A program made the position numbers and the translations under genes. Below, one piece after another: positions 2,080 through 42,230 of a stretch of 43,619 nucleotides of DNA. The notes beneath the pieces are model-generated. The model was not told the origin of the DNA. It saw only the letters and a list, made by a program, of their open reading frames with translations, and made no database searches. Positions within the stretch are counted from its first letter, which is position 1; every line of letters starts with the position of its first letter. The DNA is from an uncultured Campylobacterales bacterium (GTDB lineage Bacteria > Campylobacterota > Campylobacteria > Campylobacterales > Sulfurimonadaceae): the NCBI GenBank assembly GCA_903892995.1, contig CAITKP010000084.1, forward strand, positions 1 to 43,619, written 5' to 3'.

Positions 2080-3526
2080 TCTTCACATCCTCTTTTAGCA
2101 TTTTTAAAACACTATCCCAATCTGATATTTTTTCTTGTCTATATATTTTTACAGAAGTGTACCAATTTGTCTCCGTCTCATCAAGTCCCCATCTCCAATC
2201 AGGCACAAATGGGAGCATTAAAAAAGATTTTTTTCCCATTGCTCCACTTAGATGGATTAAAGAGCTGTCAATACTGACAATGGCATCCATACACGCCACC
2301 ATAACTGCGGTATCATAAAAATCTGTAATCAAACTTCCTAAATCTTTAACATTATACTCATCAAGAACTATTTTTTCCTCTTTACTGATTCCATACTGCA
2401 GAGAATAAAATTTAATCTCACCAAAAAGTTCACACAACCCTTCTAGGAAGGTTTTTAATTCGATCGATCTATTTTTATCGTTTTGATGTAAAGGACTCCC
2501 TTGATATGCAAAACCAACTTTTTTCTTTTTGCCTACATTCAAGTGCTTTTGTGCAAATCTTATCGCATCATTTGCATCTACATGTAAATACCTCTTCGAG
2601 AGAGGAATATTCTCATATTTGAGTCCCACATGATAACCCATATCAAGCATAGGTAGGTAGTATAAAAACTCTTGGATCTCTTGAGTAACCATAAAGGATC
2701 TGTTTGGAAAATTGTATGTAAACAGTTTCAACAATGGCTGGGAAATATAATAGACATATTTCATATTTAACGATGCAAGTTGTGAATCAAAACGAATAAA
2801 CTGTATGGCATCCCCAAAACCTTGCTCAAAGCAGATTAATACCTCATGACTCCCTGCATCTGCAAGATTTTGAATCAAGATTTTCTCTTTTAAAAGCTCT
2901 GTATTTATATAGAGATCATATTTGTGATAACGATATCTATAAAGTTCAAAACCCTTTTCATACTCCTTTTGCAATAAAAAAAGCAAAGCAAGATTCAAAA
3001 CTGTTTCGAAACTTTTTGGTTCAATCTCTAGTGCTTTTGTGTAATATTCTAAAGCTTTTACAAGATCTTTTTTTTCCTTATAAATCACTCCAAGATTATT
3101 ATATGCATCTGCATTATTTGTATCGATTTTTAAAACTTTAGTAGCGTACTTCTGTGCTTTTTGATGATCATTTTCTAACTTATAAATAACGCTTAAATTG
3201 TTCAATGCAGCGATATCTTTTTCATCAAGATCAGCTATCTGATGGTAGTATTTTTTTGCGCTTTGAAGATCACCCTCTATCTTATATAATGAAGCAATAT
3301 TTTTAAGAGTATCTATGTAATTTGGATTACATGTAAGCGCTTTTTCATAAAATAATTTAGCTCTTTGCAAATCACCTTGTATTTGATATATGACACCGAG
3401 ATTATTGTTGACTTGTGGTTGTTCTGGATTGAGAGTTAAAAATTTTTTGTAGTATTTTTTTGCATTTTGGAAGTCGTTTTGCATATGGTATTCATATGCA
3501 ATTCTGCCAACTTCATCTTCACTCAA
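2069..3526 (-). CDS. TPR protein with C-terminal glycosyltransferase-like domain
   Basis: A 485-aa protein. Residues 1 to about 205 form six TPR units of about 34 residues with the NNLGVIY and A..YY.KAL consensus. Residues from about 220 onward form a globular domain ending in SIDSSLIHLSGAMGKKSFL and PDWRWG. This resembles the glycosyltransferase-family-9-like ends of many bacterial TPR proteins, but no reaction can be assigned. The apparent start is TTG at 3526, and no ATG in frame gives a full first repeat. It begins 12 bases after the nrdB stop. It carries one exact TTACATGTAA (encoding LTCN) and one near copy (encoding LHVD). Confidence 0.75.
   Translation of the reverse strand: MSEDEVGRIAYEYHMQNDFQNAKKYYKKFLTLNPEQPQVNNNLGVIYQIQGDLQRAKLFYEKALTCNPNYIDTLKNIASLYKIEGDLQSAKKYYHQIADLDEKDIAALNNLSVIYKLENDHQKAQKYATKVLKIDTNNADAYNNLGVIYKEKKDLVKALEYYTKALEIEPKSFETVLNLALLFLLQKEYEKGFELYRYRYHKYDLYINTELLKEKILIQNLADAGSHEVLICFEQGFGDAIQFIRFDSQLASLNMKYVYYISQPLLKLFTYNFPNRSFMVTQEIQEFLYYLPMLDMGYHVGLKYENIPLSKRYLHVDANDAIRFAQKHLNVGKKKKVGFAYQGSPLHQNDKNRSIELKTFLEGLCELFGEIKFYSLQYGISKEEKIVLDEYNVKDLGSLITDFYDTAVMVACMDAIVSIDSSLIHLSGAMGKKSFLMLPFVPDWRWGLDETETNWYTSVKIYRQEKISDWDSVLKMLKEDVKNEV
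3327..3336. repeat. TTACATGTAA copy
   Basis: Exact copy in the TPR gene, reading L-T-C-N; right flank G only. Confidence 0.9.
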
Positions 3527-4638: not shown

Positions 4639-5052
4639 TTATTTTGTTAGCTTCCATTTATGATCAATCAGTTTAAGTTTTGTCGGTTTTCCATCGATCA
4701 TAGCGACTTTAGTCTCTTTATCAGCACCATCTTGAATACTTATTTTTGTACAGTTGATCTCAGACATTTTTTGTTTTACCATGCCCATTTGTGCATCAAA
4801 AACTTTCTGAATTCCATCACGCTGCTCTTTTGGAAGGGCTGCAATTTGAGTTTTTGCTTCTTCTAATTTTTTTTGTCCAGCTGTTATCTCTTTTGTTGAT
4901 TCTTCATCTGTATATTTTTTTAATTCATTAAAATCCATACCTTGAAGCGCTTTACAAACTTGAGTTGCTGTCTCTTTTGGATCTTCATCTCGAGAGCATC
5001 CACTCATCAATAAAACTGTTGCGCTAAGCGCTAATACAACATATTTTTTCAT
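4639..5052 (-). CDS. Small secreted lipoprotein, unknown function
   Basis: A 137-aa protein with a clear lipoprotein signal. A positively charged start (MKK) and a hydrophobic stretch are followed by the lipobox LMSGC with the acylated cysteine at residue 19. The mature part is charged and helical (coiled character around residues 40-95), with the segment CKALQGMDFNELKKYT resembling small lipoproteins of the DUF4878 type. That family assignment is tentative. It is transcribed leftward between typA and nrdB with its own spacer on both sides. Confidence 0.8.
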   Translation of the reverse strand: MKKYVVLALSATVLLMSGCSRDEDPKETATQVCKALQGMDFNELKKYTDEESTKEITAGQKKLEEAKTQIAALPKEQRDGIQKVFDAQMGMVKQKMSEINCTKISIQDGADKETKVAMIDGKPTKLKLIDHKWKLTK

Positions 5053-5097
5053 ATTAAGAACCTTGTTTTGTATATTATAAAAAGAAAGATAGAGGTC

Positions 5098-5107
5098 TTA
5101 CATGTAA
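5098..5107. repeat. TTACATGTAA copy
   Basis: Exact 12-bp form, first of the pair after typA. Confidence 0.95.
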
Positions 5108-5114
5108 GGCTTGC

Positions 5115-5124
5115 TTACATGTAA
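5115..5124. repeat. TTACATGTAA copy
   Basis: Exact 12-bp form, second of the pair after typA. Confidence 0.95.
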
Positions 5125-5129
5125 GTGTT

Positions 5130-6935
5130 TTATGATTTACGAGTATGGCGTTTACGTTCACTTTCGCTTAGGTAACGTTTACGAATACGGATGTTTAAAG
5201 GAGTGATCTCTAGAAGTTCATCATCTTCGATCCACTCTAATGCACGTTCCAAACTCATATCACGAGGTGGAACAAGTTTGATCGCTTCATCAGCACCTGA
5301 TGAACGAACATTTGATTGTGCTTTTCCTTTAATCGCATTTACAACAAGGTCATTATTACGAGCGTGTTCACCAACGATCATACCCTCATAAACTTTCTCT
5401 TGAGGACCAACGAAAAGTACACCACGGTCTTGAAGGTTGAAAAGTGAATATGCAAGTGTCACACCATTTTCCATAGAGATAAGTGCTCCATATTGACGAG
5501 ACTCAACGCCACCGCTATATGGACGGAACTCTAAAAATGAGTGGTTCATAATCCCCTCACCTTTTGTGTCTGTTAAGAACTGACCACGGAATCCGATCAA
5601 TGAACGAGCAGGAATTTCAAACTCGATACGTTGGAAGCCTTGACCCATTGGAATCATCGATTTCATCTCTGCTTTACGACGACCTAAACGCTCGATAACA
5701 GAACCACCAAACTCTTCAGGAACATCGATTACAAGGTGCTCAAATGGTTCACATTTTACGCCTTCGATCTCACGAACGATAACTTCTGGACGAGAAATAC
5801 CAAACTCAAAACCTTCACGACGCATATTTTCAGCAAGAATCGTAATTTGAAGCTCGCCACGTCCTGATACTTTAAATTTACCCTCACCAACAACTTCACA
5901 TTTCATTGCAACGTTTGTTTGCATCTCAGACTCTAAACGGTCTTTGATTTTGTTTGAAGTAACGTGTTTACCCTCAGTTCCAGCAAGTGGAGAATCATTT
6001 ACAGAAAATACAACGCTTAGAGTTGGCTCTTCAATGTGCATTGGATCAAGTGGCATTGGATTAGCTGGATCACAAACAGTATCTCCAACATCAACAGTTT
6101 CTAGACCCGCGAATGCAACGATATCTCCTGCTTCAGCTTCTTCAATCTCCATACGGTTAAGACCATGAAAACCGATAAGTTTTGTAATACGACCTTTAAC
6201 CATTTCACCATCTGCTTTTGCAAGAAGGATGTTGCTTCCTTTACGAATAACACCATTGAAAATACGAGAAATACCGATTTTTCCAACATAGTTATCATAA
6301 TCAAGTGTAAATACTTGTGCTTGAACTGGATTTTCTTTATCGCCAACTGGCTCTGGAATTTGACTCAAAATTGTCTCGAAAATACATTCGAAGTTTCCAT
6401 CTGGATCTGCCATATCAAGTTTTGCGATACCATCACGAGCAGCAGCATAAATGATTGGGAAATCTAGTTGATCTTCAGTTGCGTCCATTGCAGCAAAAAG
6501 GTCAAACATCTCATCAACAACGCGCTCTGGCTCTGCTGAAGGTTTGTCAATTTTGTTAATAACAACGATTGGTTTTTTACCAAGTGCTAGCATCTTTTTA
6601 ACAACAAATTTTGTTTGAGGCATAACACCCTCATACGCATCAACAAGAACTAAAACACCATCAACCATTTTTAAAACACGTTCAACTTCCCCACCAAAAT
6701 CGGCGTGGCCCGGAGTGTCAATAATATTGATTTTATAATCTTTGTAACGAATTGCAGTATTTTTAGAAAGAATCGTGATCCCTCTCTCTTTTTCTAAAGC
6801 ATTGCTATCCATTGCTCTTTCATCGTGTTGCTCATGAGCTCCATATGTTCCTGATTGCTCTAACAAACCATCAACTAGTGTAGTTTTACCGTGGTCAACG
6901 TGCGCGATAACGGCGATATTTCTAATCTTTTGCAA
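5130..6935 (-). CDS. typA: Ribosome-associated translational GTPase TypA/BipA
   Basis: A 601-aa translational GTPase related to EF-G that binds the 70S ribosome and helps 50S assembly and stress growth. The N-terminal G domain shows AHVDHGKT at 10-17, the GITI switch, DTPGHADF and NKIDKP. EF-Tu domain 2, EF-G-like domains and the BipA-specific C-terminal domain follow, with [20 protein letters not shown] characteristic of TypA. The start is TTG at 6935, supported by GAGGAAAACACC just upstream. A minus-strand TATAAT lies at 6982-6987. Confidence 0.96.
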
Positions 6936-9175: not shown

Positions 9176-10404
9176 TAGAAATACCAAAATTTTTAGCACC
9201 TTTATTGAACGCTTTGCAAGAAAAGGGTGCATCTGCTGTTTTAGTCGGCGGTTTTGTTCGGGATTCACTCCTTGGTGAAGCGCTTAAAGATATAGATATC
9301 GAAGTCTATAATATTGACGATTTTGAGACGATGGCTGAGATATTAAAACCTTTTGGAGCTCTTAATTTTGTGGGAAAAAGTTTTGGTATTTTAAAACTCT
9401 CAACAAAAGAGTTTGAGATAGATTTTTCTCTTCCTCGTTTGGAAAAAAAGATAGCTTCTGGACACAAAGGATTTGAGATTTTACTCGATCCAAAACTCTC
9501 TTTTCAAGAAGCTGCACAAAGACGCGACTTTACGATCAATGCGATGGGTTATGATGTAAATAGTGACACTTTTTTAGATCCCTTCTGCGGATATAAAGAT
9601 CTAAAAAATAAAAGATTGACCTATGTAAATAAAAAAAGTTTTGTAGAAGATCCGCTAAGAGTGCTGCGAGCGGTACAGTTTTGTGCAAGATTTGAGCTTA
9701 CATGTAGCGATGAATTGATTGAATTATCTCGCTCTCTTTGTGAGAATGGAGCTATAAAAGAGTTGCCAAAAGAGCGTATATTTGAAGAACTTTGCAAGTT
9801 ATTGCTCAAATCTAAAAAACCTTCACGCGGTTTGACTTTATTTGAAACTCTCCATCTTACAAGATATTTTCCTGAGATTTTAGATAAAAATGGTATGTTT
9901 GCCTCTCTTGATAGCTTTGTAAATTTAAAAACTAATGATGATAAAAGAGATCTGATTTTAATGTTTGGACTCATTAGCTTCCATTTTAAAAACGCCCAAG
10001 AGGTTGATGAATTTATAAATAAGTTTTCAAATGAGATAGAACTAAAAAAAGAGGTTCAAAAGCTTTACATGTACAGATATAGCTTCGCTGATATGAAAAT
10101 TTTAAGTGATTATGATATTTTGCTCTTAAGTACAAAGATAAAAATTCAGGATCTTCTTTTGATCTATGAAGCACAAGGAGTTGATATTTCAAAAATTAAA
10201 GCAAGAGCAAGTGAACTTGGAGTGCTTACATGTAAACCAAAAGCCCTCTTGTATGGACGTGATCTCATCGCGCTAGGGCTTACACCATCCAAACAATTTT
10301 CAGAGATTTTAGAGAGTGCTTATGATGCGCAACTTCAACAGCTATTTCAAAGCGCAGACGAAGCTAAAATCTGGCTTGAAAACCACTTAAAAACTATCTG
10401 TTAA
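9172..10404 (+). CDS. cca: tRNA nucleotidyltransferase / poly(A) polymerase family
   Basis: A 410-aa class II nucleotidyltransferase that should add or repair the 3' CCA end of tRNAs. The catalytic domain has LVGGFVRDSLLG (GG at 26-27) with metal-binding Asp40 and Asp42 in DIDIEVYN, then RRDFTINAMGYD and the DPLRVLRAVQFCARF head/neck motif. It is translationally coupled to the kinase gene (ATGA overlap) and converges with a hypothetical gene, overlapping it by 11 bases. It contains one exact TTACATGTAA (LTCK) and two one-mismatch copies. Poly(A) polymerase activity cannot be excluded from sequence alone. Confidence 0.9.
   Translation: MIEIPKFLAPLLNALQEKGASAVLVGGFVRDSLLGEALKDIDIEVYNIDDFETMAEILKPFGALNFVGKSFGILKLSTKEFEIDFSLPRLEKKIASGHKGFEILLDPKLSFQEAAQRRDFTINAMGYDVNSDTFLDPFCGYKDLKNKRLTYVNKKSFVEDPLRVLRAVQFCARFELTCSDELIELSRSLCENGAIKELPKERIFEELCKLLLKSKKPSRGLTLFETLHLTRYFPEILDKNGMFASLDSFVNLKTNDDKRDLILMFGLISFHFKNAQEVDEFINKFSNEIELKKEVQKLYMYRYSFADMKILSDYDILLLSTKIKIQDLLLIYEAQGVDISKIKARASELGVLTCKPKALLYGRDLIALGLTPSKQFSEILESAYDAQLQQLFQSADEAKIWLENHLKTIC
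10226..10235. repeat. TTACATGTAA copy
   Basis: In cca, reading L-T-C-K; left flank C. Confidence 0.95.
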
Positions 10405-32314: not shown

Positions 32315-33913
32315 TCAGGCGTAGATATTATCAAGCATCAGCTGGATCGATGTTTTTCCATTGAAAACATTTTTACTCACAGTATAGCTACATGTAATCT
32401 TTTTATCCTCAGGAACCTCTAAAACTTGCCTAAAAGCTACAATCTCTACCGTTTGTCTATCATAGGGTTTGAGGCGAATTCCTAAGCGGCTGTGTGATTT
32501 GTCCGCTCCAAAAAGCTTTACATGTAAGAGTTCTGCATCTTTTATAAGAAATCTTGGACGTGGATTTCCCTCGCCATAAGGTTCAAACTTTTCTAAAATA
32601 TCGAGTAGTTCAAAGTTTATAGCATCACTTTGGAGTTCTCCTAAAATATCCTCTTTAGGGATAAAATCTTTAGGATCTATTTTTAGGGCTTCTTGGTTGA
32701 TAGATGCTTTAAAAGCTTCTAAATTGCTTACATGTAAGCTAAGTCCAGCTGCCATTTTGTGTCCGCCAAACTTCTCTAAAAGAGGTTTTTGGGTGTTTAT
32801 GAGTGAAAAAATATCGACATCTCCAATACTTCTCGCACTTCCTTTTGCAACACTTTCGTGGATATTAAAAACGATTGCAGGTTTTTTGTAGCGGTTTACT
32901 AAACGTGAGGCAACAATTCCCACAACACCCTCGTGCCAATTCTCTCCAGCAACGACGATAACCTTGTCATTTTCGCTTACATGTAAGATCGCATCTTCGG
33001 TCGTATCCGCTTCTGTGGCTTTTCGGATATTGTTAAGATCACCCAAAATCTCAAAAAGTTTTGCTGCTTGATCAATACTTGAAGCTGTTAAAAACTCTAA
33101 AGCGATAGAAGCATCTTCAAGTCTTCCAGCTGAATTGATGCGAGGAGCGATTGTAAAAGCAATATCTTCTGATGAGATAGATTGTTTGTTTAAAAACTCT
33201 CTGATGATGATCGAAGATGGACGCAAAGAACTCATCATTTTTTTAAGTCCCACTTGCACAATAGAGCGATTGACGTCATAAAGAGGCATCACATCAGCGA
33301 TGACTGCAAGCGCTACAAGATCAAGATATTGCGCCATATCGATGTTTAGTTCAAGCTCTTTTTTGAGAACTCCCAAAAGAAGCCAAGCTACTTGCGCTCC
33401 ACAAATCTCTTTGAATGGATAGCTGCATTCATCTAACTTAGGATTAACAATTGCGTAAGCCTCTGGGAGTATTTTAGAGGGTGTATGATGGTCTGTGATA
33501 ATGAGATCGATGCCTCTTTCTTTACAGATTTGAGCCGCTTCAATGGCTGTAATCCCATTATCAACAGTTAAAACAAGATCGGCATCAACTCTTTTGAGTA
33601 CATTTGCATTGATCCCATATCCATCATTAAATCTATTTGGGATGATGGCAGTTAGCGGATAGTTGATCTCTCTAAAAAAAAGAACCATAATGGATGTAGA
33701 AGTGACTCCATCAACATCATAATCACCGATAAGCGTGATTTTTTCTCTGTTTTTTATCGCTTTGGCTATGCGCTGAGCAGCTTTTTGGGAATCTTTTAAA
33801 AGGGTTGGAGAGGGGATATCTTTGAGTTTTTTATAGCCATTACTAAAACGGCTTGCTAGGAGCTGATAAAGGGTATCAGCTCTTAGGAGCGGAGTATTAG
33901 GAAATGTGCTCAA
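32315..33913 (-). CDS. recJ: Single-stranded-DNA exonuclease RecJ
   Basis: A 532-aa DHH-family 5'-3' exonuclease used in recombination and repair. Motifs include [27 protein letters not shown] and IADVMPL, and the DHHA1 part [11 protein letters not shown]. The start TTG at 33913 lies inside the pyrG 3' end (17-base overlap) and is uncertain. It is the densest carrier of TTACATGTAA: three exact copies (32518, 32728, 32977, all LHV) plus a one-mismatch copy at 32388. Confidence 0.93.
32518..32527. repeat. TTACATGTAA copy
   Basis: In recJ, reading L-H-V. Confidence 0.95.
32728..32737. repeat. TTACATGTAA copy
   Basis: 12-bp form in recJ, reading L-H-V. Confidence 0.95.
32977..32986. repeat. TTACATGTAA copy
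   Basis: 12-bp form in recJ, reading L-H-V. Confidence 0.95.
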
Positions 33914-41517: not shown

Positions 41518-42230
41518 AGATCAATAAAGAGTTTTCAAAATATGCGCACAAGTATCAGCAGCTTAACCAGATTCAAACTGAGGTTGCTAAAAAACTTGTA
41601 GATAGTTTGAATAGATCCCTTATGGAGAAGCCTCAAAAGATATTGGACCTTGGTTGTGGAACTGGAGCGATCTATAAACTTATAGATTGGGAATTAGAAA
41701 AGTTTGTCGGTGTGGATTTTTCGCCTTCTATGCTCGCTCTGCATCCACAAGGCGAGAGGCTTACATGTAAGCTTGGTGATTTCAATGATGCTAATCTTTT
41801 TAGGGACTTGGAAAAAGAGGATTTTGATTTTATTATCTCGGCTTCTGCTTTGCAATGGGCGGATGATTTAGAGAGTGTTTTTACTCATATCGCAAAATTT
41901 GAGCTTCCGTTTTCTTTGGCGATCTTCACATCAGGAACATTTGCGACACTAAACAAAACAGCTGGCATTGATTCTGTGATTCCAGCATACGAGAAGATCA
42001 AACAACTTTCTCAAAAATGCTTACATGTAAGAGAAACAAATGTTGAAAAAGTTGTTTATACATTAGAGTTTGAAAATACAAGAGAGATGTTTCGCTATAT
42101 CAAAAAAAGTGGAGTAAGTGGAAATCGCAATCTGCTTACATATAAGCAGACAAAAAAGTTGATGCAAGAGTATCCGCTAAACTATTTGGAGTTTGAGGTT
42201 GTTTATATAAACTCTTTTTCCAAAGCGTAA
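41514..42230 (+). CDS. bioC: BioC-like methyltransferase
   Basis: A 238-aa SAM methyltransferase resembling BioC, which methylates malonyl-ACP to start biotin synthesis. The SAM motif ILDLGCGTGAIYK and the BioC-type FSKYAHKYQQLNQIQ opening are present, along with ASALQWADDLESVF. Other class I methyltransferases are not excluded. It overlaps znuB by 4 bases and its 3' end overlaps the convergent ThiD2-like gene by 28 bases. It carries exact palindromes at 41761 (LTCK) and 42021 (LHV) plus a variant at 42136. Confidence 0.8.
   Translation: MKINKEFSKYAHKYQQLNQIQTEVAKKLVDSLNRSLMEKPQKILDLGCGTGAIYKLIDWELEKFVGVDFSPSMLALHPQGERLTCKLGDFNDANLFRDLEKEDFDFIISASALQWADDLESVFTHIAKFELPFSLAIFTSGTFATLNKTAGIDSVIPAYEKIKQLSQKCLHVRETNVEKVVYTLEFENTREMFRYIKKSGVSGNRNLLTYKQTKKLMQEYPLNYLEFEVVYINSFSKA
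41761..41770. repeat. TTACATGTAA copy
   Basis: 12-bp form in bioC, reading L-T-C-K. Confidence 0.95.
42021..42030. repeat. TTACATGTAA copy
   Basis: 12-bp form in bioC, reading L-H-V. Confidence 0.95.

Follow-up and report, generated by a model that had tools for sequence, protein, structure and literature searches.

Introduction

To our knowledge, uptake sequences are established in two bacterial families only, the Neisseriaceae (DUS) and the Pasteurellaceae (USS), and we know of no palindromic form of either; the USS is asymmetric, with AT tracts on one side. Why uptake sequences pair up as terminators is debated. Rho-independent terminators of Neisseria contain DUS in inverted pairs (PMC2397512 and references therein). 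For HIP1, a palindrome of cyanobacteria, an origin through a methyltransferase and associated repair was proposed, and its deviants are found at the end positions (PMC4390886).

The window discussed here is a whole stretch of 43,619 nucleotides from a member of the Sulfurimonadaceae (Campylobacterota). According to the original prediction, two copies of a palindrome are paired as a hairpin just past the stop codon of typA, and the repeat they belong to has an uptake-sequence-like life history. This stem-loop is made of two copies of a palindrome found genome-wide and probably marks where the typA transcription unit ends. The results of this work make it quite conceivable, if just short of probable, that the palindrome spread as an uptake-like sequence and that its pairs were then retained as terminators. 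No account of the motif was found in the literature, where subscription papers are thinly covered and absence is therefore weak evidence.

Results and Discussion

The two copies of CTTACATGTAAG past typA are 100% complementary and 5 nt apart (Table 1), so that the perfect stem with a 5-base loop, placed by the original prediction 4 nt past the stop codon, is indeed there. In principle, any two neighbouring copies of a perfect palindrome make a perfect stem, and the stem is therefore uninformative beyond the close spacing of its arms. In RNA of the typA strand the hairpin has a computed folding energy of -14.4 kcal/mol (z = -5.1). The pyrimidine tail expected below it was recovered in part: the typA-strand tail, ACCTCTATCTTTCTTTTT, is rich in pyrimidines but has no canonical U-tract, and a terminator scan called the hairpin on the plus strand only, with the tail TGTTTTATGA. 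The interval between hairpin and next gene would, as its sequence reads, fit a boundary between two transcription units.

Table 1. Features of the window mentioned in the text.
Feature	Position	Strand	Remarks
Single TTACATGTAA copy	3327..3336		
Small protein gene, next 3' of typA	4639..5052	-	DUF5339 weak, below cut-off
Pyrimidine-rich tail, then TATAAT-like -10 box, both before the next gene	5053..5096	-	Sequence reading
Palindrome copy 1, hairpin arm	5097..5108		CTTACATGTAAG
Hairpin loop, 5 nt	5109..5113		GCTTG on plus strand
Palindrome copy 2, opposite hairpin arm	5114..5125		CTTACATGTAAG
typA/bipA, stop codon 4 nt from hairpin	5130..6935	-	ORF; Pfam GTP_EFTU, BipA_C
Single TTACATGTAA copy	10226..10235		
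TTACATGTAA copy	32728..32737		Next closest set, with 32518-32527 and 32977-32986; spacing about 200 nt

An exact pair is found just past typA in G000 (the genome of the window) and in four further species of its genus, G016, G030, G046 and G052, with loops that differ in sequence and length. At the same gene end, G058 has one copy intact and one broken, and G038 has a single copy inside a longer palindrome. Among motif-poor relatives, several form ordinary hairpins there whose sequences are unrelated to the repeat. Such a mixture of pairs with varied loops and unrelated hairpins suggests that the place of the hairpin at typA is old, and that its sequence seems to have been taken over by the repeat.

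The repeat itself, TTACATGTAA, has 23 copies in the window, where chance would give 0.08. The 2.43-Mb genome holds 756, with about 1.8 expected (scaled up from 0.6 per 826 kb), and one copy of the reversed control. In 826 kb of this genome sequence, TACATGTAA is the most frequent 9-mer. Words that deviate from the core by one base are about as frequent as chance predicts, and the outermost base alone varies (CTACATGTAA, 95 copies; GTACATGTAA, 30). The flanks carry further symmetric signal on both sides, A-rich from -8 to -4 and followed by n, S and Y, giving the consensus A-rich-nSY-TTACATGTAA-RSn-T-rich; i.e., a sharp core of 8-10 bp within a wider, AT-flanked footprint of 26 bp, seen in coding copies as well as intergenic ones. 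Such a shape may mark where a sequence-specific protein binds. One copy, at 42020, is accompanied about 100 nt on by a form with one mismatch, CTTACATATAAG, at 42135 (window positions 42020-42146).

As had been claimed, the typA pair is the only closely spaced one in the window, where no other two TTACATGTAA copies come within about 200 nt of each other, and the excess of pairs 3-12 nt apart that was proposed as a genome-wide check is present, with 29 such pairs observed and 2.4 expected. Spacing of the copies is Poisson at every scale except for this excess and a lesser one that extends to 30 nt; islands or deserts of the motif were not found in the genome, whose largest gaps fit the same distribution. 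The expected position just 3' of stop codons was found too: by simple ORF calls, and for this genus only, 25 of 28 inspected pairs are intergenic and all 25 lie past a stop codon, 24 of them within 38 nt. Thirteen of the 25 are in convergent and 12 in tandem regions, with none in divergent ones. Counted by copies, 22 paired intergenic copies fall in convergent regions against 6.1 expected, and, under a looser definition of pairing, two fall in divergent regions against 11.8. Single intergenic copies, on the other hand, track the lengths of the region types (in convergent regions, nine vs 9.8 expected).

The hairpin of a pair would, in RNA, end or stabilise transcripts. Sequences 3' of pairs are richer in T than those around coding copies (P = 0.002), and not richer (0.48) than those past single intergenic copies (0.44). 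This equality, together with the lack of a canonical U-tract on the typA strand, is what would be expected if the typA hairpin were no terminator but a stabiliser of the 3' end, or were simply read through, and if the pair excess reflected some other function at 3' ends, such as protein binding. Such a view has to face the strong bias of pairs towards convergent gene ends, their absence from divergent regions and the -10-like box of the next gene directly 3' of the hairpin, and we think it unlikely. The reading of pairs as terminator-like, with 3' ends probably forming at them, is well supported by their position and conservation. If so, the pair rule would offer a ready way to call transcript ends in motif-rich genomes.

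Comparison of orthologous sites tells how copies arise and persist. In alignments of G000 with G016, which are about 76% identical, 22 of 52 ungapped motif sites (42%) are intact; of the remaining 10-mers, 11.8% are (P = 3e-8). The sites lost are chiefly altered by gapless substitutions. Since non-conserved sites in coding regions are mostly gapless substitutions, copies are not insertions. Residues encoded by the motif show lower conservation (72%) than other residues (82%); the DNA word is kept in coding sequence although the protein positions are permissive. An origin by insertion, REP- or MITE-like, was rejected on the ground of the gapless alignments. Insertion of a short mobile or REP-like element behind genes, where it would act as a terminator, would account for the enrichment between genes and for the hairpin pairs, but 69% of copies are inside ORFs (in the sampled sequence), orthologue alignments are mostly gapless and no longer flanks are shared, which makes this explanation very improbable.

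G030 has 48 copies yet three pairs, the one at typA included, and of the seven motif sites in 100 kb of its sequence, six are common to G016. In this genome the drive seems to have stopped, with mainly the pairs still under selection. G030 and G223 (49 copies) both seem to have lost most copies, whilst their pairs exceed expectation more than 100 times; the two may be natural examples of how the repeat decays once its drive has ceased.

In the family of the window, at least 100 copies are found in 19 of 151 genomes, belonging to five genera, and most genomes hold 0-10. Elsewhere in the order, none of 242 genomes sampled from other families holds more than nine copies, and one more family, probably the Sulfurospirillaceae, holds 107-1,496 in 22 of 28 genomes (f20). 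Among the genomes sampled, the motif is confined to these two families of the order. Excess of close pairs accompanies it throughout the 31 motif-rich genomes that were tested, with 614 pairs against 150 expected, and is individually significant (P < 0.05) in 26 of them. Among 2.9 million viral contigs the pair was seen in 22 stretches, nearly all without the flanking pattern.

A search for other dialects in motif-poor G072, G086, G078 and G010 gave none as strong. In motif-poor G088 (C1:1-100000, L211-L215), TAGATGCAA occurs 32 times against five expected, along with related AGATGC words, and is possibly a different repeated word; in G025 (C1:1-100000, L226-L230) about 16 copies of overlapping CACCATTCACCATTCACC words are probably a tandem repeat. 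Motif-rich G053 (2,153,198 bp; locus L295), which we take to be possibly Sulfurimonas autotrophica DSM 16294, a cultivated strain, carries 340 copies.

Could the copies be sites of an abundant DNA-binding protein (a nucleoid-associated or chromosome-maintenance protein or a global regulator), and owe their persistence to selection for binding all over the chromosome? A sharp symmetric core with its AT-flanked footprint in both coding and intergenic copies, conservation of positions above the control, and pairs scattered all round the closed chromosome of G016 are what such a protein would leave behind. Hundreds to 1,500 copies in Poisson spacing and with no preference for promoters are harder to reconcile with it, as is the near absence of the motif from close relatives; moreover, copy numbers as far apart as 48 and 756 among members of a single genus demand a very labile function. 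We regard this possibility as rather improbable.

A further rival is a HIP-like palindrome that a DNA methyltransferase, with associated repair, would create and maintain, with no role in uptake and with pairs that became terminators secondarily; methylation at TACATGTA would suit it. The motif is palindromic and patchy between genera, its copies arise by substitution, and its single-base deviants lie at the first or last base with core variants near chance, as in HIP1. Methyltransferase sites, however, are usually shorter than this motif, whose core spans 10 bp and whose footprint spans 26 bp. Also against this explanation, PF02086 and PF01555 are both absent from motif-rich G053, G116 and G137, and motif-poor genomes often do carry methyltransferases of one or the other family. 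On balance, we hold a HIP-like origin to be unlikely. As drivers of the motif, the PF02086 and PF01555 methyltransferases were rejected since neither co-varies with it. Many motif-rich genomes, from several genera, encode a DNA methyltransferase of the D12 type, about 335-350 aa long (G000 C25:6213-7109); it occurs in motif-poor genomes as well, and is absent from G053, G116 and G137.

The favoured interpretation is that of an uptake sequence. The palindrome, which has spread throughout the genome by base substitution, would be recognised by a sequence-specific protein; the spreading force would be that DNA bearing the motif is preferentially taken up and recombined (i.e., molecular drive), and pairs would then be retained as terminators, as with the Neisseria DUS. 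Such a drive would explain the origin of copies by substitution, their Poisson spacing, the conservation of the core within genes, the patchiness between genomes and the use as terminators, a picture close to the one published for the Neisseria DUS (PMC2397512).

The search for a receptor brought little. None of the 151 family genomes has a match to ComP (PF16732) over the cut-off. ComEC is present in 144 of the 151 and type IV pilins in 16 of 16 genomes, but these competence genes are present in motif-poor genomes too and do not discriminate. The comEC locus, pilins included, looks the same whether a genome is rich or poor in the motif, so that it reveals no co-varying receptor and yields no candidate. 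A third pilin at this locus, suggested as receptor by pilin counts, was rejected: motif-rich G000, G053 and G052 have two, according to gene calls. The uptake-like life history postulated for the repeat is supported in part by the excess of pairs past stop codons and by conservation of the typA pair, and weakened by the lack of ComP, the lack of a co-varying receptor and the palindromic form. Taken together, this analysis leaves such a history plausible, close to probable without reaching it. More tentatively, and with somewhat less assurance, the motif may represent a third, independent uptake-sequence system, in the Campylobacterota (Sulfurimonadaceae and probably Sulfurospirillaceae), palindromic, read by a putative receptor, and with pairs recruited as terminators.

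A motif with the genomic habits of uptake sequences and a palindromic form would provide an independent case in which to test uptake drive against methylation and against a chromosomal protein as the maker of such repeats. Hosts of the motif are free-living and partly cultivable, and, should G053 be S. autotrophica, its type strain may allow such a test.

Comparison with known systems

With HIP1 the motif shares its palindromic form, very high copy number, patchiness between genomes and deviants at end positions. It differs in its unrelated sequence (that of HIP1, GCGATCGC, has just eight copies in 826 kb), in showing no co-varying methyltransferase in the two families tested and in its strong excess of pairs at gene ends. 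The Pasteurellaceae USS resembles it in having a short core with AT-rich flanks, many copies, and hosts with competence and type IV pilin genes, whereas the core sequences are unrelated, occurring seven and nine times in 826 kb.

The Neisseria DUS differs from the motif in sequence, in form and in phylum: the motif is palindromic, unrelated to the DUS core (GCCGTCTGAA, with no copy in 826 kb), and found without ComP. In spite of this, the two have much in common. Both are 10-12-mers of hundreds to about 1,500 copies, enriched between genes and common to related species; both have their coding copies at less conserved positions; and both occur as close pairs, within about 21 nt, that lie past stop codons and can form hairpins.
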